Source: an uncultured Kordiimonas sp. (GTDB lineage: Bacteria; Pseudomonadota; Alphaproteobacteria; Sphingomonadales; Kordiimonadaceae). Taken from it: a DNA stretch of 64,000 bases. The first letter of the stretch is position 1. Each line of letters begins with the position of its first letter. The DNA lies in NCBI GenBank assembly GCA_947503575.1, contig CANNDZ010000001.1, positions 434,001 to 498,000 on the forward strand, read 5' to 3'. Made by a program: the position numbers and the translations under genes. Under the pieces are notes generated by a model. That model ran no database searches and was not told the origin of the DNA. It saw only the letters and a program-made list of their open reading frames with translations. Below are positions 8,046-19,074 of the stretch, in pieces.

Positions 8046-8453
8046 TTATCGCCGTCCGCAGACGCACTCGCCGCTTGCAACCATCTTTTCCAGATAGTCT
8101 GTTACCGCTTGTTCCAGCAGCTTTTGCTGGCTAACACCTTCCCGGGCAGCCAGTATTCTCAGATCGCGGTCCGCCACACTGCCCAGCCGCAGGTGCTTTT
8201 TGTGGGGTTTTTTTGTTGCACTATACCGGTTCGAGGACGCGCCTGCGGTTTTGGGTTGCAGGGCGGTAACTGCTGACAGCCCGCGCGTTGTGCTGGGCGT
8301 GCCCGATGGGCTTTGGTTATTTGGCACACCCTGGGTATTTACCGTGCTGTGTGCGTTCGGCGTGGTCGGGTTGCTGGGTGCCGGAATATTGGGGGTCGGA
8401 TGGGCCGTTCCCTTGCGGGCCAACAGGGATGCATTCAGGGAAGCCATGGTCAT
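8046..8453 (-). CDS. Small RHH-like protein paired with ParA
   Basis: A 135-residue protein. The first ~80 residues are low-complexity (Pro, Thr, Ser, Asn) and probably disordered. A basic patch (KKPHKKHLRLGS) is followed by a short domain (VADRDLRILAAREGVSQQKLLEQAVTDYL split over two helices) that looks like a ribbon-helix-helix DNA-binding or dimerisation unit. AGGAGA lies upstream of ATG 8453. It follows the ParA gene by 72 bases on the same strand, as small centromere-binding partners follow ParA genes on plasmids. No ParB gene is present. The RHH assignment is by pattern only. Confidence 0.6.
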   Translation of the reverse strand: MTMASLNASLLARKGTAHPTPNIPAPSNPTTPNAHSTVNTQGVPNNQSPSGTPSTTRGLSAVTALQPKTAGASSNRYSATKKPHKKHLRLGSVADRDLRILAAREGVSQQKLLEQAVTDYLEKMVASGECVCGRR

Positions 8454-8525: not shown

Positions 8526-9245
8526 TTAGTAGGCCGATGGTTGTGGAGCCGGTTCAATGATCTGTTGTCGATTGCCAAATCCGACGCGCGGTGTGCCAAG
8601 GCTTTTAAACTGGGCTTTCATCGGTAGCCGTTTGATCCGGTCAGTGATGTAAGTCCACAATAGTTCCACTTCCTGTGCAGACTTGCCGCTGGCATTTGCT
8701 TCCATCACGGTGCGGCCATCTATCATGCTTGCGGCAAAATCCTGCCGGTTGTGCAAAATGGTTGGTGCAACCGTGCCATGCTGCGACAGTGCAATCGCTG
8801 CTTCTCCGGTGAGCCGCGCGCGCGCCGTCGCGCCGTTGACGACAAACACCAGCGGTTTGCCAGCGCGCTCCACCAGTTCAACGGTTTTCCCCGCTGCCCG
8901 CAGGTCATGGGGGCTGGGCCGCGTTGGGATAATCACCAGATCAGATTTAGTGACAACAGACTGGATCGCGCCAGTAATGGCGGGAGGTGTGTCGATAAAC
9001 ACCAGCCGGATACCCTCATCGCGCAGGGCGGCAAGGTCCGTATCCAGCGTTGCCAGCGTTGCCTGGGCAAAAGCAGGATCGCCTGCCTCGCGCTCGTTCC
9101 ACCAGTCGGACAAGCTGCCTTGCGGGTCTGTGTCAATAAGAGCCACGGGTTCGCCACTTGTGCGGGCGGCTTCCACTGCCAGGTGGCCGGTTATGGTTGT
9201 TTTTCCTGAGCCGCCTTTTTGCGACGTTACTGCGATAATGCGCAT
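8526..9245 (-). CDS. ParA/MinD-family ATPase
   Basis: A 239-residue cytoplasmic ATPase with the deviant Walker A motif KGGSGKTT (residues 10-17), carrying the signature first Lys. The switch I-like DTDPQGSLSDWW and the Walker B segment LVFIDTPPA follow. The length matches small, orphan ParA proteins that lack the N-terminal DNA-binding domain. Such proteins position plasmids, chemoreceptor clusters or other large cargo on the nucleoid. The start has GGAGA nine bases upstream. The following gene encodes a disordered, RHH-like partner. The cargo is unknown; nothing nearby suggests a plasmid origin. Confidence 0.85.
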   Translation of the reverse strand: MRIIAVTSQKGGSGKTTITGHLAVEAARTSGEPVALIDTDPQGSLSDWWNEREAGDPAFAQATLATLDTDLAALRDEGIRLVFIDTPPAITGAIQSVVTKSDLVIIPTRPSPHDLRAAGKTVELVERAGKPLVFVVNGATARARLTGEAAIALSQHGTVAPTILHNRQDFAASMIDGRTVMEANASGKSAQEVELLWTYITDRIKRLPMKAQFKSLGTPRVGFGNRQQIIEPAPQPSAY

Positions 9246-9637: not shown

Positions 9638-12600
9638 CTAATGCTGCGTCTCGTCCCACCACCAGAAGGGCGCCATTTCTTTGCGCACTGGCCATACTTG
9701 CGTCAGCGTATCGCCTTCATACAGTTCGCCGTTTTTCATTACCCAGCGCACGCTGTTGGTGTTTCTGATATTCTCGAGCGGATTTGCGTCCAAAACCACC
9801 AGATCAGCCAATTTTCCAGTTTCCAGCGACCCCAGGTCTTCGCTGATGCCTATGATGTGGGCACCATCGATAGTAGCGGCGCGCATCACCTCGGCGGGTG
9901 TCATGCCGCCCATGGCAAACGACCACATTTCCCAATGATAGCCAAGACCCTGTAATTCGCCGTGACCGCCAACACCAACCAGCCCGCCTGCGCGCTGCAA
10001 AGCAGCTGCAGAACTTGCGATTTCATCGACAGTAAATTCGTCGTCCCGTGCCCACACAGTGCGGCGGCTTGCCAGTTCGTTCAAACGGTTACGCGGATAA
10101 AAGCGGTTTAACTTCGGGTCATTAAGAATTTCATCCCGCGTGAAGAAATAATGCACCATGCTGATACCGTTATATTGCACCACCAGAGTCGGCGTGTAGG
10201 CGGTTTTGGTTTTGGCATAAAGTTCCAGCACATCCTTATACATGGGCGCGATGGTTAACGTATGTTCGTTCCCGTGCATGCCATCAATCGCATGAGTGAT
10301 ATCCATCCGCATATCACCGCCGCCTTCCGTGGTTGGCAGCAGCCCCAGTTCTTTTGAGGCTTTGATAACCCAATGGCGCTGTTTGCGGTTGCCAGTTAGG
10401 TAGGCTTTGATGTTTTTGGTGCGATAATGGTCTGAATAGCGCTTCAGATAAGCGTAGGCCGCATCATAAGACTGGAAGTCTGTATCGCCGAATATGCCCC
10501 GGCCGGTCATGAAGGCGCGCTGGCCCAGGGACTGGCCTGTTTCCACCATGTCGCGGTAGCTGAAATAATCATGATACGCGGTTTGCACATCAAGGCCCGC
10601 AGTGACCCCGTAAGCCAGGTTGGCGACCAAACTCCAGTTCCGGGGCTCCAGCACATCATTGGTGCGAAACTCCCAGTGTGCATGTGTATCAATAAATCCG
10701 GGCACAATATATTTGCCGCTAACGTCTTGCGTGGCAGTGCCTTCGGGCACTGTGATGGCGCTGCTCGGCGCGATTGCGGCGATGCGGTTATCAGTGACCA
10801 ATATGTCATGGTTTTCGCGCACCATGGTCATATCATCCGTGGTGTCGCCCGCCATGGTGATGACGTGCGCACCCGTTAACAGAACAGAGCCTGACGGCGT
10901 TTTGCGCGGTGCCTCTACTACAAACGTACGTTTGGTGATGGCATCATTATCTTCGAGGATTTCTGGTTTTTTTTCAGGCTCACTTTCGGAGTTTTTCGGA
11001 GCATCATCGGTGTCACCTTCTTCGCCAGAATCTGTTTCTGCGTCGCCTTTGTCCTCTTTATCCTCGTCTTTTTTACGAAACTCGACTGTGTCAAACGGCA
11101 GGCTGTAAAGCGTATCACCGATAGCCCAGCGGATCGTGTTACCACCATCAGCCCAGCCGAAGAAATCCGCTCCAATGCTGGTGAGTTGTTTGGCGGGTAC
11201 AGATGGCCCCCTGAGCGTGACAGTTGGTGTTTTGCCGCCCAGTTGAGGCACCGGCATAACCCAGACCTGCTTTTGTGCAAACGCAAGTGCATGCCGCCCA
11301 TCTGGGCTGATGCGCATGGACTCAGCCTTTGGTGGTTCCGGGCTGAATTGTCTATTACCGCGCGGGTGCACCACGATCAGATGTTCGCGTTTGTCGGTGC
11401 CATCATACTTCATCGAATACAGCGCTGTGCCGGAATACAGATAAACTCTGTCGTCCTCGGGGCCGAAATGCGGGGACCGGGCACCATCCGCACGGGCAAT
11501 CAGCGTAGTATCGCCGCCGTCCGAAGGCAGCCACACCACATCAAGCGGCATGTTCAGGCCAAAAAATTCACTGAAAAGCTGACGCCGTTTGTAGGCGTTG
11601 CCACGCAGACCAACAATGCGTTCTCCGTCCGGGCTGAAAGCTATCTCTGTATAAAAAGCAGGGTGTTCGGTCAGCTTTTGCGGTCTGCCACGTCCGTTGC
11701 TGCGGGTTTTCCAGATGTGCCCTTCGCCGTCTGCCGACCAGGTGACATAGGCAATCCAGCGGCCATCGGGTGACCACACTGGCTTGAATTCCCAAGCGTT
11801 GCCTGATGTCAGGCGCTGTGGTGTTGCCCCGTCTTCGTTATCCATCAGGTAAATTTTGGTCAGGACAGACGCTGCGATGCGTTTGCCGTCTGGCGACGCG
11901 ACAGGGTCGTGCACAATGGTTGCCTGTACTGGCCCCTGTGGCACACGGTAAGGCGACGTGAGGTCTGGCCCGATGTCCAGATCAACGGTTGCGTTGAAGG
12001 CGATTTTACTGCGCGCGCCGTCGCTCATTTGAATGCGTTCAAAAGCACCGCCCGTGTTCAAAATAATAGCGTCACCTTCGGCGGTGAAGGCGTAGCTTGG
12101 GTAATAATCACGGCTTGGCATGCGCCCGGCTTCTTGGGCATCGCGCTGGATCGGCGAAGCGATCATGCGGTCACTACCACTAACCAGGTTCCGCACGCGG
12201 ATGCCGGTTTCGGTTTCCTTACGAGATAGGTAAACCAAAGTGCGGCCGTCAGGCGAGATCGCAGGCCGGACACCGCCGCCCTCGCCCTGGGTTATGCTGT
12301 CCACCTCGCCGGTGCGCCGATCAAAGCGGGCGATATGCCCAGCCGGGAAACCACGTCCGCCCGTCGGCTGTGTGAAATAGATGTAGCGGCCATCAGGTGA
12401 GAAAACGGCCCCAACCCCTGCCAGTGGTTTTTTGCCATCGTCTGTTGTCAGCGTAACGCCGCTGCCGCCGTCGATGTGGTACATCTTGATTTTGGTTTCG
12501 CGGCCCCCTGTGGTCATGACCACATACTGGCTGTCTGGTGACCAGGCCGGGGATACAAGGCGGGTATGTTTTTCGCCCGATAGCTTGCGCGGTTTGCTGC

Positions 12601-12982
12601 CATCCCGGTTTGTAACCCAAAGGTTGTCATCGCCGTCGCGGTCGCTGATGAAGGCAATATACTGGCCGTCCGGGGATACGCGCGGCATGCTGTCATAACC
12701 CATGCCTTCGGTCAGGCGGGTTGCGGCCCCGCCTGTAGCAGGCATTTCATACAAGTCGCCCAGCAATTCAAATATGATATGCTGTCCATCAGCCGTGACA
12801 TCCAGCGACATCCATGTGCCTTCGGTGGTATCAAAGGTCAGCTTTTGTGTGCTGCCTTCCAGCGGCAGGGCAGGTTTTTTCTTGTCGTCAAGCGCGTGCG
12901 CGCCTGGTTGCAGGCCCTGCACGAGAAGAAGTGTCAGGCTTGTCATCGCCATCAGTATTGGATTGCTAAAAAACGTCCGCAT
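9638..12982 (-). CDS. Secreted beta-propeller (PD40) and amidohydrolase fusion protein
   Basis: A 1114-residue exported protein. After a signal peptide (to about residue 30) come TolB/PD40-type beta-propeller blades with repeated S-P-D-G motifs (VSPDGQYIAFISDRDG, WSPDSQYVVMTTGG, FSPDGRYIYF). A very acidic linker lies near residues 630-680. A metal-dependent amidohydrolase domain fills the C-terminus, with FIDTHAHW as the metal-binding HxH, a later GMHGNEH, and the closing LGSLETGKLADLVVLDANPL typical of the superfamily. The usual catalytic Asp motif near the end reads VGGHGELQG. Substrate unknown; a peptidase- or cyclic-amide-like activity in the periplasm is plausible. GGGGGA precedes ATG 12982. 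Confidence 0.85.
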   Translation of the reverse strand: MRTFFSNPILMAMTSLTLLLVQGLQPGAHALDDKKKPALPLEGSTQKLTFDTTEGTWMSLDVTADGQHIIFELLGDLYEMPATGGAATRLTEGMGYDSMPRVSPDGQYIAFISDRDGDDNLWVTNRDGSKPRKLSGEKHTRLVSPAWSPDSQYVVMTTGGRETKIKMYHIDGGSGVTLTTDDGKKPLAGVGAVFSPDGRYIYFTQPTGGRGFPAGHIARFDRRTGEVDSITQGEGGGVRPAISPDGRTLVYLSRKETETGIRVRNLVSGSDRMIASPIQRDAQEAGRMPSRDYYPSYAFTAEGDAIILNTGGAFERIQMSDGARSKIAFNATVDLDIGPDLTSPYRVPQGPVQATIVHDPVASPDGKRIAASVLTKIYLMDNEDGATPQRLTSGNAWEFKPVWSPDGRWIAYVTWSADGEGHIWKTRSNGRGRPQKLTEHPAFYTEIAFSPDGERIVGLRGNAYKRRQLFSEFFGLNMPLDVVWLPSDGGDTTLIARADGARSPHFGPEDDRVYLYSGTALYSMKYDGTDKREHLIVVHPRGNRQFSPEPPKAESMRISPDGRHALAFAQKQVWVMPVPQLGGKTPTVTLRGPSVPAKQLTSIGADFFGWADGGNTIRWAIGDTLYSLPFDTVEFRKKDEDKEDKGDAETDSGEEGDTDDAPKNSESEPEKKPEILEDNDAITKRTFVVEAPRKTPSGSVLLTGAHVITMAGDTTDDMTMVRENHDILVTDNRIAAIAPSSAITVPEGTATQDVSGKYIVPGFIDTHAHWEFRTNDVLEPRNWSLVANLAYGVTAGLDVQTAYHDYFSYRDMVETGQSLGQRAFMTGRGIFGDTDFQSYDAAYAYLKRYSDHYRTKNIKAYLTGNRKQRHWVIKASKELGLLPTTEGGGDMRMDITHAIDGMHGNEHTLTIAPMYKDVLELYAKTKTAYTPTLVVQYNGISMVHYFFTRDEILNDPKLNRFYPRNRLNELASRRTVWARDDEFTVDEIASSAAALQRAGGLVGVGGHGELQGLGYHWEMWSFAMGGMTPAEVMRAATIDGAHIIGISEDLGSLETGKLADLVVLDANPLENIRNTNSVRWVMKNGELYEGDTLTQVWPVRKEMAPFWWWDETQH

Positions 12983-13139: not shown

Positions 13140-13535
13140 ATGAGCACTCAAAACCCCGGCCCCGGCTACAAGCAACACCCCGATCACCGTGTTGATTTGA
13201 AGCCCATTACTGCAGATGTTCGCGTTGAGGCGTTGGGGCAAACCATTGCTCAATCATCGCGCGCCATCATGGTTCAGGAAACCCGCTATGCGCCGGTGGT
13301 CTATATACCGTGCAGTGATGTAAATTTTGCGCTACTGCAAGAAAATGCCGAACAAACATATTGCCCCTTCAAAGGGACTGCCCGCTACTGGAACATTCGG
13401 ATTGGTAATGATACTATCGGTAACGCCGTTTGGGGATATGATCAGCCTTATGATGAAGTGAGCGACCTTGCCGGTCATGTGGCGTTTTACAAAGATCGGG
13501 TTGATGCAATTTACCTGGACAATCAGGCAACCTGA
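13140..13535 (+). CDS. DUF427 family protein
   Basis: A 131-residue cytoplasmic protein of the DUF427 family. Typical blocks are VRVEALGQTIAQSSRAIMVQET, the middle segment VVYIPCSDVNFALL, and the conserved CPFKGTARYWNI, followed by AVWGYDQPYDEV and a closing VAFYKDRVDAIYLD. The fold is a small beta-barrel; no enzymatic role is established. A GGA-type ribosome-binding site precedes ATG 13140. It is divergent from the amidohydrolase gene and stops eight bases from the convergent barrel gene. Nothing in the context assigns a role. Confidence 0.85.
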   Translation: MSTQNPGPGYKQHPDHRVDLKPITADVRVEALGQTIAQSSRAIMVQETRYAPVVYIPCSDVNFALLQENAEQTYCPFKGTARYWNIRIGNDTIGNAVWGYDQPYDEVSDLAGHVAFYKDRVDAIYLDNQAT

Positions 13536-13542
13536 TCGTGTT

Positions 13543-14742
13543 TCAGAAATAGCGCTTAACGCGCAGGGTGATGTGGCTGTCGCGTCGGAAAACCGACAAA
13601 AGGTTGCCACTGTCTGTGTTGGCAAAAAACCGGCCTTCCAAGTCAAAAACCCAGTTGTCCCCCACCCGGCGTGAGGCTTCAACAAGGCCCGACAGGGAGC
13701 CGTCTTCCATATCAGTGACGACACCCGCTAGAAAATCAGTATCCTCTGCATCGTTGAGCGCCAGTCGTGCGCCAACAAACAGGTCATTGTTTGCAATGGT
13801 GGGAGCTGCCAGCAGAAAATCGTCCGAACGGTCATCATACTGATATTCCATCAATACCCCTAGGTCGGCGCCTGCGTCTGTTACGCCGTAAAACGTATAT
13901 TCAAAACCGCCAACGGCCGCCGTGAATGTCTCAAACGGTGTGTCACGGATAATGCCCTCAAATTTCCATAGCCACGCGTCTTTTGTATACTGAAGGTCAA
14001 TACCGACCTGTGTGATGTCATCATAAAAAGGCACAAATACATCAGGGGCCGGCCCGGATAAAAGCCGGGGTTCGCGGCTAGCGCCGTGGAAAAAAGACAG
14101 ACCCACGTCCCAGTCCCCAATATAGTGGCTGTAGCGCAGAGCAAAATCTACGTCTGCATCGTCATCCGCCCCTTCGTCAAAACGGGCTAGGTCATTATCA
14201 ACACTACCCGGAAACCTCAGTCTGCCGTCAAGTCCAGGGAAGGTGCGTTTGCGAAAAAACGGCATGACATAGCCAGTGATTTGACCCCAGTCACGGATCG
14301 TCGACACCTCAATCATCGGCTGACCCAATTTATCTTCTTCGTCGATGTCCTCTACCGTATCGAATTGGTTAATGATATCGACAAGGTGACGGCTTTCTGC
14401 CACCCCCCAGAAAACCTTGGTCAGGCCGGCACGTACTGTCCAGTCGTCGCCTGCCCAGCGCACGTAAGCTTCGCGCATGTCAAAATGGGTGCGTCGGTCA
14501 TCCTGGCCATCGATACGGGCATAAGGAACAATCACCAAGTCCCAGGCACCGCCCTGGCTTTGCCAGCGCACATCTCCCTCAAGCTGCATTGAGGGTTGAA
14601 ACGTTTCTAGCTGCCCTGGAAACGCGCCATCTTGGAAGAAGGTGCGTAGTTCAGTGCCGACAGAGGCACCGATATCCAGATCACCCGCGAGAGCAGGCAA
14701 GCTCTCTCCAAGAAGCGCAGCTGATAGCATCAGTTTATGCAT
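13543..14742 (-). CDS. Outer-membrane beta-barrel protein of RND operon
   Basis: A 399-residue protein with a signal peptide ending near LPALAG. Many amphipathic beta strands follow, spaced by Asp/Gly-rich turns, ending in LRVKRYF with the terminal Phe recognised by the Bam machinery. Segments such as FDMREAYVRWAGDDWTVRAG and VFWGVAESRHLVDIINQ resemble DUF1302-type barrels. It is the last gene of a three-gene operon, 11 bases after the LolA-like gene. The ribosome-binding site is weak, suggesting translational coupling. I infer it is the outer-membrane component or endpoint of an RND-driven transport path; this is not shown directly. Confidence 0.75.
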   Translation of the reverse strand: MHKLMLSAALLGESLPALAGDLDIGASVGTELRTFFQDGAFPGQLETFQPSMQLEGDVRWQSQGGAWDLVIVPYARIDGQDDRRTHFDMREAYVRWAGDDWTVRAGLTKVFWGVAESRHLVDIINQFDTVEDIDEEDKLGQPMIEVSTIRDWGQITGYVMPFFRKRTFPGLDGRLRFPGSVDNDLARFDEGADDDADVDFALRYSHYIGDWDVGLSFFHGASREPRLLSGPAPDVFVPFYDDITQVGIDLQYTKDAWLWKFEGIIRDTPFETFTAAVGGFEYTFYGVTDAGADLGVLMEYQYDDRSDDFLLAAPTIANNDLFVGARLALNDAEDTDFLAGVVTDMEDGSLSGLVEASRRVGDNWVFDLEGRFFANTDSGNLLSVFRRDSHITLRVKRYF

Positions 14743-14753
14743 TGACCGGCTTT

Positions 14754-15587
14754 CTAGCGAATGCGCTTCAGGATGCCTTTGACAAAGTCTTTGTCGGCAA
14801 GGCCGGTTTTAAATGCATAGTCACCATAGGCAATGGTGGTTGATTTGCCGGTTTGATGGTTTTCCATGGACATCAGATGAGGCCGCCAAACACCGCCCTC
14901 ATATTCGCGGTAGTCACTGAGCGTCAGGGTTTTCAGCAAACTGTCCTTGCGGTCATAGAAGTCTATCTTGCGAACTTGAAAGACATCCTGGTCGACCAGC
15001 GATACTTGCCGCGTGTAGCCAGAATTTTCATAGCGTGGCAGCCGTTCGACCACATCAACTGTCATGCCATCAAACGTGTCTTCACCGACATAGCGGTAGC
15101 TGTATTTATTCAATTCCGTCGATGTGAAATCTTCAAAGGCAAACTCTGATCCGACAAAGGGGCCGGATTTGTTGGCGCTTGAAATGCGTTTTACCCGTTT
15201 CAGCGCTGGCAGGTACAGCCATTGATCGTCCGCTTCCAGAATTTTAGCATGACTCAAAAGGGCTGTACCTTGCACATCGCGGGGGGTTTCAAACACGGTT
15301 AGGGACTTGTCGCCAACGTCTTCGTTTTCGCGCTCGAGGGTTTTGAAATACAGCTCGCGCGTGCTGGTGCGACCGGCCGCATTGGTCAGTGTCATCACCG
15401 CCGTAACCTCTGAGCTTTCAAAGCCGGTGTCAGATCGGTCAGACCGTGCCGCAATCTCAAACCCTTTGTCTTCAGCGGCCGTGTTTTGTGCTGTCGCTGG
15501 TTCATGCGTCAGACCGGCTAGCAAGCCGATGAGCAGACCGGCCGCTATTGCGGTTCGTGATGTGGTGTTATGCTGTTTGGTCAACAT
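14754..15587 (-). CDS. LolA-like outer-membrane lipoprotein-sorting protein
   Basis: A 277-residue periplasmic protein with a signal peptide ending around ATAQ. The body matches the LolA-like family (COG2834/pfam17131 type): strands containing VMTLTNAAGRTSTRELYFKT, LLSHAKILEADDQWLYLPAL, KRVKRISSANKSGPFVGSEF and FTSTELNKYSYRYVG. The fold is a half-barrel with a hydrophobic groove for lipid-like cargo. ATG 15587 is chosen because AAGGAG precedes it; a TTG 18 bases earlier is less likely. It overlaps the end of the RND gene by 20 bases. Role inferred: periplasmic carrier between the permease and the outer-membrane barrel. Confidence 0.85.
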   Translation of the reverse strand: MLTKQHNTTSRTAIAAGLLIGLLAGLTHEPATAQNTAAEDKGFEIAARSDRSDTGFESSEVTAVMTLTNAAGRTSTRELYFKTLERENEDVGDKSLTVFETPRDVQGTALLSHAKILEADDQWLYLPALKRVKRISSANKSGPFVGSEFAFEDFTSTELNKYSYRYVGEDTFDGMTVDVVERLPRYENSGYTRQVSLVDQDVFQVRKIDFYDRKDSLLKTLTLSDYREYEGGVWRPHLMSMENHQTGKSTTIAYGDYAFKTGLADKDFVKGILKRIR

Positions 15588-17934
15588 GGTCAGTGTCTCC
15601 TTCAAGGGCTTTGCCGGTGAATAATTTGTCTGCGCCCATCATCATCAGGGCGGGTAGGAAAAGAAAATCGAACAATAGGGCCAGTGCGATGGCAAGCGCC
15701 GTGAGCAGACCCAGGTCCGAGTTGATTTTGAAATGCGATGTAGCAAGATAAGCAAAGCCAATCACCAGCACGACGGTGTTGACGACAAGTGCCATGCCCA
15801 CCATTTCAAATGCATATTTGATAGCACCTGCTGCGTCATAGCCTTTTTCCCGCATGCCGCGCACGAACTTGGACAAGAAGTGCACCGTATCATCAACAAC
15901 AATACCTAGCGATACACTGGCCACCGCCGCGACAGAAAACCCAACCGTGCCGACCAGCAGCGCCCAAGCACCAAATGCCGCCACAATAGGCAACCCGTTC
16001 GGCACAATAGACAAGGCGCCCAGTCTTGCAGATTTCAATGCCACCATCATCACAAGTGCGATGGCGATGACGGCAATAATATTGCCAGCAATCATGCTCT
16101 CCACATTGCGCTCCGCGACATAGGTGAACATGACCTGTGCACTGGTTGGAACGGTTGCTTGCATATAGTCCGGCGCGTTTTCGGCAATCCACTGCCGGGA
16201 GGCATCAAGAAATGCTTTGGTTTCAATGGTTGACGTGTTGGTCAGTGTTGCTGTGACCCGGGTGGCAGACTTGTCGATATTGACCCGGTCATTCAGGTCC
16301 AGACCATAGGGAAGAGACAATTCATATAACAGCAGATACTGTGCAGACAGTTCCCTGTCATCCGGCAGACGGTTCCAGGTTTCATCGTCGCCGTGCAAGT
16401 TTTTGTTCAGCCGCTTCATAATGTCGGACAGCGAGTAGACGTGGGTAACATTTGGCTGTGCGCGCAGAAATTCGGTAAAATCATCCAGCGTCTGCAAATA
16501 GTCGGGGTCGCTGACGCCCCCTTCACCGTTTGCCTGAACGGAGAATTCAATTGGATAGAATCCGAAATACTCTGTCGCATAATCCGAGTCGCGCCTGAAT
16601 TCGATGCTTTCATCAAAATACTCGGTCCACTGGTCGTTAAATTCAATTCTTGGGACCGCTGCTACAAGCAGAATACCGAGCGCGCCAATGCCGTAGAAAA
16701 GCTTCTTGTGGTTGCCGACAACAAAATCCGCCAGTCGCGCCATGCCGCTTTGCCTAACACCTTCAATGGGCTTGGGCGCGCGCATCGGCAGCATACTCAT
16801 CATTGCTGGCAGGAACGTGACCGATAGTATCCAGGCCATCACAATGCCAATTGCTGAAATATTACCAAGGTGCCAGAAGGGCGGCGCATCAGAGAAATTG
16901 AGCGCAAGAAACCCTATGGCTGTGGTCAGTGATGTTACCATTACCGCAAGAAAGTTTACACGAACCGCTTCAATAATTGCGGCGCGTTTGTCCATGCCGC
17001 TTCTCATGCTGTTGCGCATCGTAATCAGGATATGCACCGCGTCAGCAATGGCGAGTGTGAGGATGATTGTCGGCGCGGATAACACTATGGGGTCAATTGC
17101 AAGACCCATATAACCGGCGGCCCCCATGCCAATCGACGACGCGAAGCCAATCATAAGAAGGGTAACAAAAGTGCCGGAGATAGACCGCACTGTTACCATC
17201 ATCAGCACCAATAGAAGTACATACATGAAGGGTATCATGGTCATGGAGTCAGCCATGCCTGCTTCCTGAAAGGCATTGTTCAGCATGGAAACCCCAATCA
17301 TGCGAATTTCATGATCTGGGTATTTGGCCTGAACCGTATCGCGGATTTCCCGTGCGTAGGAGACCGCTTCTGGCACTTCGTCCAAAGATTTTTCGGGGTA
17401 TTGTACAACCACATTGACGGCTGTTGCTGCGCTGTTTCCTGTTACAATTTGATCTCGCAACAGGGGTTCCGCAACCGCGATGGCGCGCACGCGCTCCAAC
17501 TCAGTCGCCGATAGCGACGCGGCACCGGTTACCAAGTTTTCGACAATCAAGTCATCGTCTTCGGCTTCTGTATGCTGGAAATTGGTTAGCGAATCCACCC
17601 GGATGGAATAGGGAATTTGCCACGCTTTCTCAGTTAGCTCTTCAACCAATGCCAGGGTTTCATTGGTGAATACATCACCATCTGGCGGCACAATTGCGTA
17701 AAAAACATTATCGTTCTTAGTGTAAGTGCTTTGCAGGTCTTCAAATGCCTGCAATTCCGGGTTCGCTTCGGAGAAAAAGTCGCGATAATTGTTGGAAAAC
17801 TTCAGATACTGGGTTCCACTCGCTGCTACAATAGTAACAATAAGCGTGGCTAAAATCACCAGCCAGCGGAAACGAATAACACTATTGGCGAGTTTGACAG
17901 CAAACTCATCCATCGCAGTCATGGTTTTGGGCAC
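15568..17934 (-). CDS. RND-superfamily permease (MMPL/HpnN-like)
   Basis: A 788-residue inner-membrane transporter with two repeated halves. Each has one N-terminal helix (the first near residues 22-42), a large periplasmic domain, and a block of five helices. The first block contains the acidic membrane motif ALAIADAVHIL, and the second VSLGIVVDDTVHFLSKF, both candidate proton-relay sites. The lack of a canonical TolC/MFP partner and the LolA-like and barrel genes downstream point to lipid or hopanoid/sterol-type cargo rather than drug efflux. GTG 17934 has AGGGGAG upstream; ATG four codons later is an alternative. Probably controlled by the divergent LysR gene. Confidence 0.88.
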   Translation of the reverse strand: MPKTMTAMDEFAVKLANSVIRFRWLVILATLIVTIVAASGTQYLKFSNNYRDFFSEANPELQAFEDLQSTYTKNDNVFYAIVPPDGDVFTNETLALVEELTEKAWQIPYSIRVDSLTNFQHTEAEDDDLIVENLVTGAASLSATELERVRAIAVAEPLLRDQIVTGNSAATAVNVVVQYPEKSLDEVPEAVSYAREIRDTVQAKYPDHEIRMIGVSMLNNAFQEAGMADSMTMIPFMYVLLLVLMMVTVRSISGTFVTLLMIGFASSIGMGAAGYMGLAIDPIVLSAPTIILTLAIADAVHILITMRNSMRSGMDKRAAIIEAVRVNFLAVMVTSLTTAIGFLALNFSDAPPFWHLGNISAIGIVMAWILSVTFLPAMMSMLPMRAPKPIEGVRQSGMARLADFVVGNHKKLFYGIGALGILLVAAVPRIEFNDQWTEYFDESIEFRRDSDYATEYFGFYPIEFSVQANGEGGVSDPDYLQTLDDFTEFLRAQPNVTHVYSLSDIMKRLNKNLHGDDETWNRLPDDRELSAQYLLLYELSLPYGLDLNDRVNIDKSATRVTATLTNTSTIETKAFLDASRQWIAENAPDYMQATVPTSAQVMFTYVAERNVESMIAGNIIAVIAIALVMMVALKSARLGALSIVPNGLPIVAAFGAWALLVGTVGFSVAAVASVSLGIVVDDTVHFLSKFVRGMREKGYDAAGAIKYAFEMVGMALVVNTVVLVIGFAYLATSHFKINSDLGLLTALAIALALLFDFLFLPALMMMGADKLFTGKALEGDTDHVDQTA

Positions 17935-18009
17935 GGTGATGCTCCCCTAATGCCGTTTTCTTTTTTAACGACGGTTTGAACCCTTTGGTTCTGCGTTTTT
18001 ACCAAACTT

Positions 18010-18030
18010 TCCTGACAGGATATGTCAGGA
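18010..18030. promoter_or_regulatory. Palindromic operator between RND operon and lysR gene
   Basis: Exact inverted repeat with arms TCCTGACA (18010-18017) and TGTCAGGA (18023-18030) and spacer GGATA. It sits about 76 bases upstream of the RND start and 97 upstream of the LysR start, where a shared regulator of divergent promoters would bind. LysR proteins usually recognise dyads of this size. Binding by the adjacent LysR protein is inference. Confidence 0.65.
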
Positions 18031-18126
18031 GCCTTGTTTGACCGTCGATCGTTATGATCTTGCGCCTATATGATGGTTTAAGTACTATTTAGGAAATTGA
18101 TATTTAAAACTTTGGATATTCATTTC

Positions 18127-19074
18127 ATGAATTTGGCAGGTGTAGATCTAAATCTTCTTTTGGTATTCGATGCAGTAATAACCGAACGCAATGCTACCCG
18201 TGCTGGTGACAGAATTGGTATGTCTCAGCCAGCAGTTTCCAACGCCCTTAATCGCTTGCGCCATGTTTTGAAAGATGAGCTGTTTTTGCGCGGCCCCGAT
18301 GGCATGAGGCCAACTGCGCGGGCGCTGGAACTGGCAAAGCCAGTCAGGCAGGCGCTCACCGAAATAGAAAATGCATTGCAGCCAACGGTTTTTGATCCGG
18401 CGACCGCCAAACGAACCTTTACGGTGGCCACTACGGATTATGCATCGCTCACGCTGTTGCCTTATTTGGCAAGGTATCTGATGGAAGAGGCCCCTGGCGT
18501 TAATTTACATACAATACCTATTGATGGGCGATTGTATGAAAAGCTGGATGCACGTGAGGCAGACTACGGCCTGACCGCTTTAGGGAAGGTGCCCAGCCGG
18601 TTTGGTCGGGCAGACATCGGGACAGACCGTTTCGTGTGCATGATGCGCACAGATCATCCACTCGCGAAATATTCGGAGATACCCCTTAATGAATTTGCTG
18701 CCGCGCGCCACCTTCTGGTAACGCCTCGCGGGGATGCCCATGGTTTTGTGGACGATTATTTGAAGGACCGTGGCTTGTCGCGGCAGATTGCCATGACAGT
18801 AAACGGGTTTGGCTCTGTTCCTATGATCGTGGAAGCCAGCGACTTAATCGCCTCCATCCCGAGCATCATGGCCGAAAAATGCAGCGAATTTTTTGACCTG
18901 AAGCTTTTACCATGCCCTGTGCCAAGCCCGGAAGGTATTGTTGGTGAAGTGTTGGTGTGGCACGAGCGCCTTGCCGACCATCCTGCTCATTCCTGGTTTC
19001 GGGAAATGGTGAAACGCGCAGGCGCGGACCTGAATATGAAAGGCATAAGTTGGCCTGTTCAGCCTGTCTCTTGA
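18127..19074 (+). CDS. LysR-family transcriptional regulator
   Basis: A 315-residue DNA-binding regulator. The winged helix-turn-helix spans residues 1-65 (DLNLLLVFDAVITERNATRA, then MSQPAVSNALNRLRHVLKDE), and the effector-binding domain opens with the FTVATTDYASLTLLPYLA block. The N-terminal MNLAGVDLNLL opening groups it by eye with NodD/SyrM/LeuO-like members. ATG 18127 is chosen on that resemblance; an in-frame TTG at 18097 would add ten residues. Its position divergent from the RND/LolA-like/barrel operon, with a palindrome between, suggests it controls that operon and itself. Confidence 0.88.
   Translation: MNLAGVDLNLLLVFDAVITERNATRAGDRIGMSQPAVSNALNRLRHVLKDELFLRGPDGMRPTARALELAKPVRQALTEIENALQPTVFDPATAKRTFTVATTDYASLTLLPYLARYLMEEAPGVNLHTIPIDGRLYEKLDAREADYGLTALGKVPSRFGRADIGTDRFVCMMRTDHPLAKYSEIPLNEFAAARHLLVTPRGDAHGFVDDYLKDRGLSRQIAMTVNGFGSVPMIVEASDLIASIPSIMAEKCSEFFDLKLLPCPVPSPEGIVGEVLVWHERLADHPAHSWFREMVKRAGADLNMKGISWPVQPVS

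Follow-up and report, generated by a model that had tools for sequence, protein, structure and literature searches.

A conserved permease, LolA-like carrier and outer-membrane barrel operon in Kordiimonas as a candidate shuttle-type exporter

How Gram-negative MMPL-type pumps hand lipids to the outer membrane is largely an open problem. We analysed a 64,000-nucleotide stretch of DNA from an uncultured Kordiimonas sp. (GenBank assembly GCA_947503575.1, contig CANNDZ010000001.1, positions 434,001 to 498,000; this whole stretch is referred to here as the window), in which an RND permease, a LolA-like periplasmic carrier and an outer-membrane beta-barrel are encoded side by side. What might such a trio carry, in which direction, and how? 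The trio is a real module, with linkage between its genes far above chance, and we give an even chance to the reading that it is an inducible, self-contained and proton-driven exporter moving a hydrophobic or amphiphilic molecule by shuttle. It brings all three steps together in a compact set, so that each can be separately deleted or purified.

Gene order and linkage of the trio

The three genes lie on the minus strand and are transcribed from higher to lower coordinates, in the order permease, carrier, barrel:

15568-17934, minus strand: RND permease of the MMPL family, 788 amino acids, GTG start (open reading frame, Pfam)
15597-15602, minus strand: AAGGAG ribosome-binding site of the carrier gene, within the permease reading frame
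14754-15587, minus strand: LolA_like periplasmic carrier, ATG at 15587 (open reading frame, PF17131)
13543-14742, minus strand: outer-membrane beta-barrel, 399 amino acids (open reading frame, AlphaFold2 model)

The carrier ATG (15585-15587) lies inside the permease gene, whose 3' end (15568) the carrier gene overlaps by 20 bases, and an 11-base spacer (14743-14753) separates the carrier stop from the barrel start. A sequence-only reading of the window had described this arrangement, and we confirm the positions of all three genes, the overlap and the gap. Such a layout suggests a tight operon, probably cotranscribed and partly coupled. The closest named relatives are Kordiimonas, and the host genome spans 3.6 Mb.

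We collected 80 loci as the best of 394 carrier relatives, a set that was thus selected for likeness of the carrier. In all 80, the permease gene immediately precedes the carrier gene or is fused to it, and the barrel is directly downstream in 77; of the remaining three, one (L037) stops at a contig end and two (L063 and L071) are without a barrel. Because these loci had been chosen by carrier, genomes were also sampled evenly. When 299 Pseudomonadota genomes were searched with a barrel profile (E up to 1e-30), a barrel was found in 32. A carrier lies within 1.2 kb upstream and on the same strand in 31 of these 32, the exception (G450) being a 65% complete genome, and a permease lies within 230 bases upstream of 30 of the 31 carriers. 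On all these counts the three families are neighbours, contrary to the rarity that would have refuted the sequence-only reading, and the order permease-carrier-barrel recurs in Alpha- and Gammaproteobacteria and in a few other groups.

A 240-genome sample of the class, in which matches were counted at E up to 1e-3 for barrel and carrier and up to 1e-60 for the permease, contained matches to the barrel in 34 genomes, to the carrier in 40 and to the permease in 36. Both partners accompany 23 of the 36 strong carrier matches, with permease only at six (three of them at contig ends), barrel only at one and neither at six. The 38 barrel places divide into 26 with both partners, three with carrier only, one with permease only and eight with neither, two of the eight being at a contig end. 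For the permease, 24 of 64 places have both partners, seven the carrier, three the barrel, and 30 have neither partner within the set limits. The neighbour counts in the genome samples thus tie barrel and carrier tightly together, and indicate a permease family wider than the trio.

Several relatives depart from the standard order. A small Pseudoalteromonas plasmid (L181:7225-18123) has all three genes beside gamma-mobile-trio (gmt) recombination genes, the barrel (425 bits) being upstream and on the opposite strand; the presence of the module with gmt genes on a small plasmid implies that it can move. In a distant relative on a Sulfitobacter plasmid (L183:9916-23772) a type I polyketide synthase gene is followed by permease and carrier, then by galE and then by the barrel, which makes this locus a good place for finding a cargo. 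Genome G180 has a cytochrome P450 gene between permease and barrel (L148:7256-12621), and the carrier is on a separate contig, beside fatty-acid-type enzymes. Another genome (G084; L155:226-5744) has two permeases in tandem before one carrier, with a TetR gene adjoining; the tandem pair could perhaps form a hetero-oligomeric pump. There is also a carrier-less permease subfamily (about 600-700 bits; L172:7719-13156, L146, L148, L170, L171, L173 and L176), which at these seven loci adjoins an unnamed protein of 480-500 amino acids, methyltransferase-like by eye, and often a histidine kinase.

The three proteins and their fused relatives

The permease matches MMPL (PF03176) with 111.4 bits, above the Pfam gathering cut-off of 20.5. 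Its top NCBIfam match is HAE3 (TIGR00921) at 158.3 bits, yet this is below the cut-off of 351.9. It had been called HpnN-like in the sequence-only reading, and what stands of this is a distant kinship: the permease scores 99.5 bits against the curated HpnN model TIGR03480 (cut-off 751.85) and 30.5 against NF052374 (cut-off 1100), in both cases far too low for membership, and it also falls short of the BstA sterol transporter model (26.9 bits against a cut-off of 1400). An alignment of 28 sequences revealed an invariant aspartate in each permease repeat, D298 with H301 and D681 with H685. Proton-driven RND pumps keep such aspartates, and D298 and D681 would be expected to carry protons. In a Foldseek search with a model of a fused relative, described below, the permease is structurally closest to MmpL4, MmpL5 and MmpL3, these being mycobacterial exporters of lipids or siderophores. 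The 50 best matches to the fusion model are all RND-type proteins or their relatives and do not cover the carrier domain, which is partly of low confidence, and the model served for the permease only. The other parts of a tripartite HAE1 system, a membrane fusion protein and a TolC-like channel, are absent among the families of the trio and its next neighbours; they were not sought in the rest of the genome.

The carrier (P0002) matches LolA_like PF17131 with 200.5 bits (gathering cut-off 30) and, more weakly, DUF1329 with 44 bits. Its fold assignment comes from the solved structure 3bk5, which it matches with 258 bits (E 6.4e-76); a second solved structure, 9tp6, matches with 107.7 bits. Invariant aromatic or hydrophobic residues in the alignment include W129, F150, F155, F157 and F160. 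The N-terminus is predicted by inspection to be a signal peptide and has no visible lipobox, and a simple hydrophobicity scan at a threshold of 1.6 detected no segment. The carrier does not match canonical LolA (PF03548) at E up to 1; the sole PF03548 match in the host genome (73.5 bits) lies outside the window, at C1:318106-318591.

For the barrel, no Pfam or NCBIfam family scored above cut-off. An AlphaFold2 model built from 56 relatives has a mean predicted local distance difference test (pLDDT) score of 87.4 and a predicted template-modelling (pTM) score of 0.82, and shows 18 strands by our count. The top Foldseek matches are general porins when ranked by E-value, and AlgE and chitoporin when ranked by TM-score (0.55-0.58, normalised to the query, at about 10% identity), which suggests a barrel type shared with porins and AlgE, not close kinship. 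When strand residues were divided by parity into two faces, charged residues made up 35% of the less hydrophobic face and 6% of the opposite one, where the less hydrophobic face was the one assigned as inward and no barrel with a hydrophobic lumen served as a control. The barrel therefore appears porin-like, with a probably charged inner face. Among the measured segments, conservation is highest in the long loop at residues 109-140, which joins strands 5 and 6 (0.85 against a mean of 0.63), although the model gives this loop low confidence (blocks of 56-65). It occupies the position of the constriction loop of classical porins, and we speculate that it may be ordered by a partner.

Kinship with named barrel families was also sought. 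A DUF1302 match was obtained for only one of the 56 barrels (E 0.17), and comparing profiles with 10 of 17 DUF1302 proteins gave a probability below 2%, so that membership of DUF1302 was rejected; the host genome (G000) contains no match to this family. A W-G motif at a like place in the barrel and in DUF1302 is suggestive only. Matches to Porin_O_P and Wzi remained under the cut-offs (11 and 12 of the 56 members, respectively, at E up to 0.5).

At 11 of the 80 loci permease and carrier are read in one frame, and nine of these fusions are full length. Fused genes occur, among others, at L039, L049 and L076; the Colwellia locus L101 and the Sessilibacter-like relatives are unfused. In each of the nine, a hydrophobic segment, corresponding to the former signal peptide, intervenes between the permease and the carrier domain, which would thus be placed in the periplasm. 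An ATG or GTG precedes this segment in all nine, and in eight a GGAG-type site lies 4-16 bases before the internal start, compared with a background of 3-8% in the same genes; by chance, eight of nine would have a probability of 5e-10, a figure that treats the nine as independent although they are related. In L094, which is among the eight, the site is retained in a different codon register. The fused genes would therefore appear still to yield free carrier. Going beyond this, we regard it as possible, if doubtful, that a fused gene gives both free carrier and carrier tethered to the pump through a thirteenth hydrophobic segment, and that the trio represents a distinct and widespread class of shuttle-type exporters with its own, as yet unnamed barrel family. 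Fusions that keep the start predict two forms of carrier, and, if this is true, a tethered loader together with a free ferry would explain how lipid from an RND pump of this kind can reach the outer membrane when there is no duct.

A second, distant group of Kordiimonas fusions (1062-1085 amino acids; L177:6138-10655, L178:11891-15148 and L179:5203-9723) was also found. A barrel-like gene with 28-35 bits in the barrel profile follows the fusion in L177 and L179, and an AraC-type regulator, assigned by Pfam in L178, has relatives nearby in all three loci. The GGAG-type site is missing in these three fusions, of which two have a Met at that place and one has none, so fusions do not in general keep the internal start.

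Regulation, transport path and rival readings

Two further features lie upstream of the permease gene:

17935-18126: divergent intergenic region, candidate promoter/operator (conserved stretches in alignment)
18127-19074, plus strand: LysR-type regulator, divergent (PF03466, PF00126)

The open reading frame of the regulator was listed from a TTG at 18097, but translation more probably begins at the ATG at 18127. Two stretches of the intergenic DNA are conserved across 10 aligned loci, one containing AAATTGATA at 18094-18102 and the other CTTGCGCCTATATG at 18059-18072, and the region that holds both is a candidate promoter/operator. The gene adjoining the permease was assessed at 68 loci, these being the 80 and the window less 13 that were dropped (seven with the permease at a contig end and six without a permease call). 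It belongs to a TetR cluster, identified by Pfam on one member, at 42 loci, to the divergent LysR cluster at 11, namely the window itself and 10 of its close relatives, and to others at 15, several of which are likely to be spurious open reading frames. No enzyme cluster recurs at more than a handful of these 80 loci. With regulators adjacent and no recurring enzymes, the trio looks like an inducible pump and not like part of a pathway, and the exchange of TetR for LysR offers a handle on the inducer.

Beyond the operon on its other side, a DUF427 gene (13140-13535, plus strand) adjoins the gene for a 1114-amino-acid protein that combines PD40 propeller repeats with an amidohydrolase domain (9638-12982, minus strand). 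Further on is a ParA-like ATPase, judged by eye from its P-loop (8526-9245, minus strand), with a small gene adjoining (8046-8453).

The genes, their fold classes and their conserved order are observed, and the conservation of the families as neighbours bears out the earlier suggestion that they form inner-membrane, periplasmic and outer-membrane parts of one path. In the exporter that we propose, a ligand of the neighbouring regulator would induce the operon, and the MMPL-type permease would use the proton gradient to extract the cargo from the inner membrane. The LolA-fold carrier would then shield the hydrophobic part of the cargo and ferry it across the periplasm, by shuttle rather than by duct, as the operon has neither an adaptor protein nor a TolC-like duct. 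Finally, the barrel would take the cargo and release it outside or into the outer leaflet; given its charged inner face, the cargo may be amphiphilic. In favour of this picture stand the conserved gene order, the in-frame fusions, the likeness of a relative's permease to MmpL4, MmpL5 and MmpL3, the porin-like barrel, the adjacent regulators, the distant relatives beside a polyketide synthase or a P450, and the precedents of AmeABCD and ApeL/M/N. Several points weigh against it. Homologues of the trio are separable, with six of 36 strong carrier matches and 30 of 64 permease matches partnerless; the polarity contrast between the barrel faces is partly built in, as the less hydrophobic face was chosen as inward; and the closest expression precedent, from an alkane degrader, was interpreted by its authors as alkane uptake (PMC6304351, from the portion of the text available).

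This last point introduces the main rival, uptake of hydrophobic compounds for growth, for example long alkanes or aromatics, in which the barrel would admit the substrate and the carrier and permease would bring it to the inner membrane. To our knowledge, all RND pumps whose direction is known export, and the modelled inner face of the barrel appears charged rather than FadL-like. On the side of uptake, TOL_3187 of Thalassolituus oleivorans is reported to rise 42-fold, with the porin TOL_3188 detected on n-C28 only (PMC6304351), but the likeness of these proteins to the trio is drawn from their description. An MMPL/DUF1329/porin 'Nanopod' cluster is likewise described, in the accessible text, as strongly expressed in a benzene degrader (PMC13101534), and some genomes have parts of the trio near genes for a CoA ligase, CoA transferase, aldehyde dehydrogenase or P450. 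Fused systems are, however, not all alike, since two of the three paralogous Kordiimonas fusions have only a 28-35-bit barrel after them, and overall we consider uptake unlikely. Also unlikely, if slightly less so, is a dedicated exporter of one particular natural product or glycolipid that the cell would make from genes at another place in the genome and secrete, as proposed for aryl polyenes and ApeL/M/N (PMC8253772, in part). The Sulfitobacter-plasmid relative, beside a polyketide synthase and galE and with glycosyltransferases further off, would fit such a role, as would a relative on a Leisingera plasmid (only 27% identity in the carrier) that sits inside a biosynthesis-like cluster. Against this, no biosynthetic cluster is found repeatedly among the window and its 80 nearest loci, and the enzyme-linked relatives are only 27-40% identical in the carrier and lack a barrel directly downstream.

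Placement of hopanoids or sterols in the outer membrane, in the manner of HpnN or BstA, had been hinted at in the sequence-only reading, and we now judge it very improbable. The permease does belong to the HpnN superfamily (99.5 bits), and in the class sample a cyclase is present in 15 of 34 barrel genomes compared with 51 of 206 others, a mild excess (Fisher p = 0.024, uncorrected for kinship). The cut-offs for HpnN and BstA are, however, missed widely, and 19 of the 34 barrel genomes have no cyclase match; nor does the host genome, in a search with SQHop_cyclase_N (PF13249). If that search is complete, a hopanoid made by this strain itself can be rejected as cargo, although imported sterols could still serve. 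Least probable of all is the sorting of lipoproteins to the outer membrane, to which the name of the PF17131 family and the LolA fold of the carrier might point. The host genome has its own, separate canonical LolA, the carrier is partnered by an RND permease and not by LolCDE, and a carrier matched in only 40 of 240 class genomes is unlike part of an essential sorting route, so that we ruled against this role.

Comparison with known systems

Pairs of RND and LolA-like proteins for lipids and RND-LolA-barrel sets for hydrocarbons have already been published (PMC8253772, PMC6394551, PMC6304351 and PMC13101534, each consulted in part), whereas our searches of the open-licence PMC literature showed no description of this barrel family, of the trio in its strict form or of fusions that keep the start. 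That literature, which leaves subscription papers uncovered, also yielded no functional study of the trio, the nearest being the work on T. oleivorans. The earlier statement that no role is established for this exact trio is thus nearly right, and needs to be qualified by the report on TOL_3187/3188 on n-C28 and by AmeABCD, a functional cousin, as far as the available portions of both papers go.

In Porphyromonas gingivalis, LolA3 (9tp6; PMC13103446) matches the carrier, and in Bacteroidetes operons (PG1175-81; PMC10434189) a LolA-type protein is paired with an MMPL permease, as in the trio. In the accessible parts of these two papers, however, the P. gingivalis systems are accompanied by ABC transporter genes and a TetR gene, with no mention of such a barrel. 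HpnN and MmpL3/4/5 share the permease fold, but the permease lies below the HpnN cut-off and the MmpL proteins are mycobacterial. ApeL/ApeM/ApeN likewise combine an RND permease with a LolA-like carrier, and are proposed to deliver a lipid-linked product to the outer membrane; unlike the trio, they end in a LolB-like lipoprotein instead of a barrel and lie within a biosynthetic cluster (PMC8253772, according to the text available).

Closer in composition is AmeABCD of Castellaniella defragrans, which unites an HAE3-type permease, a periplasmic protein of the LolA superfamily (DUF1329) and an outer-membrane barrel, and whose deletion reduces monoterpene tolerance; it differs in that AmeA is a 605-amino-acid DUF1302 barrel and in having a fourth subunit, AmeC (PMC6394551, as far as its available sections report). 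The barrel of the trio has 399 amino acids and no significant kinship to DUF1302, and the operon, flanked by the LysR and DUF427 genes, has no AmeC-like fourth subunit. Finally, TOL_3187/TOL_3188 of T. oleivorans, induced on the n-C28 alkane, resemble the trio in combining an MMPL permease and a LolA-like domain, followed directly by a gene for a porin without conserved domains (PMC6304351, in the excerpt available). In TOL_3187 permease and carrier are one protein, and the likeness is one of described composition.

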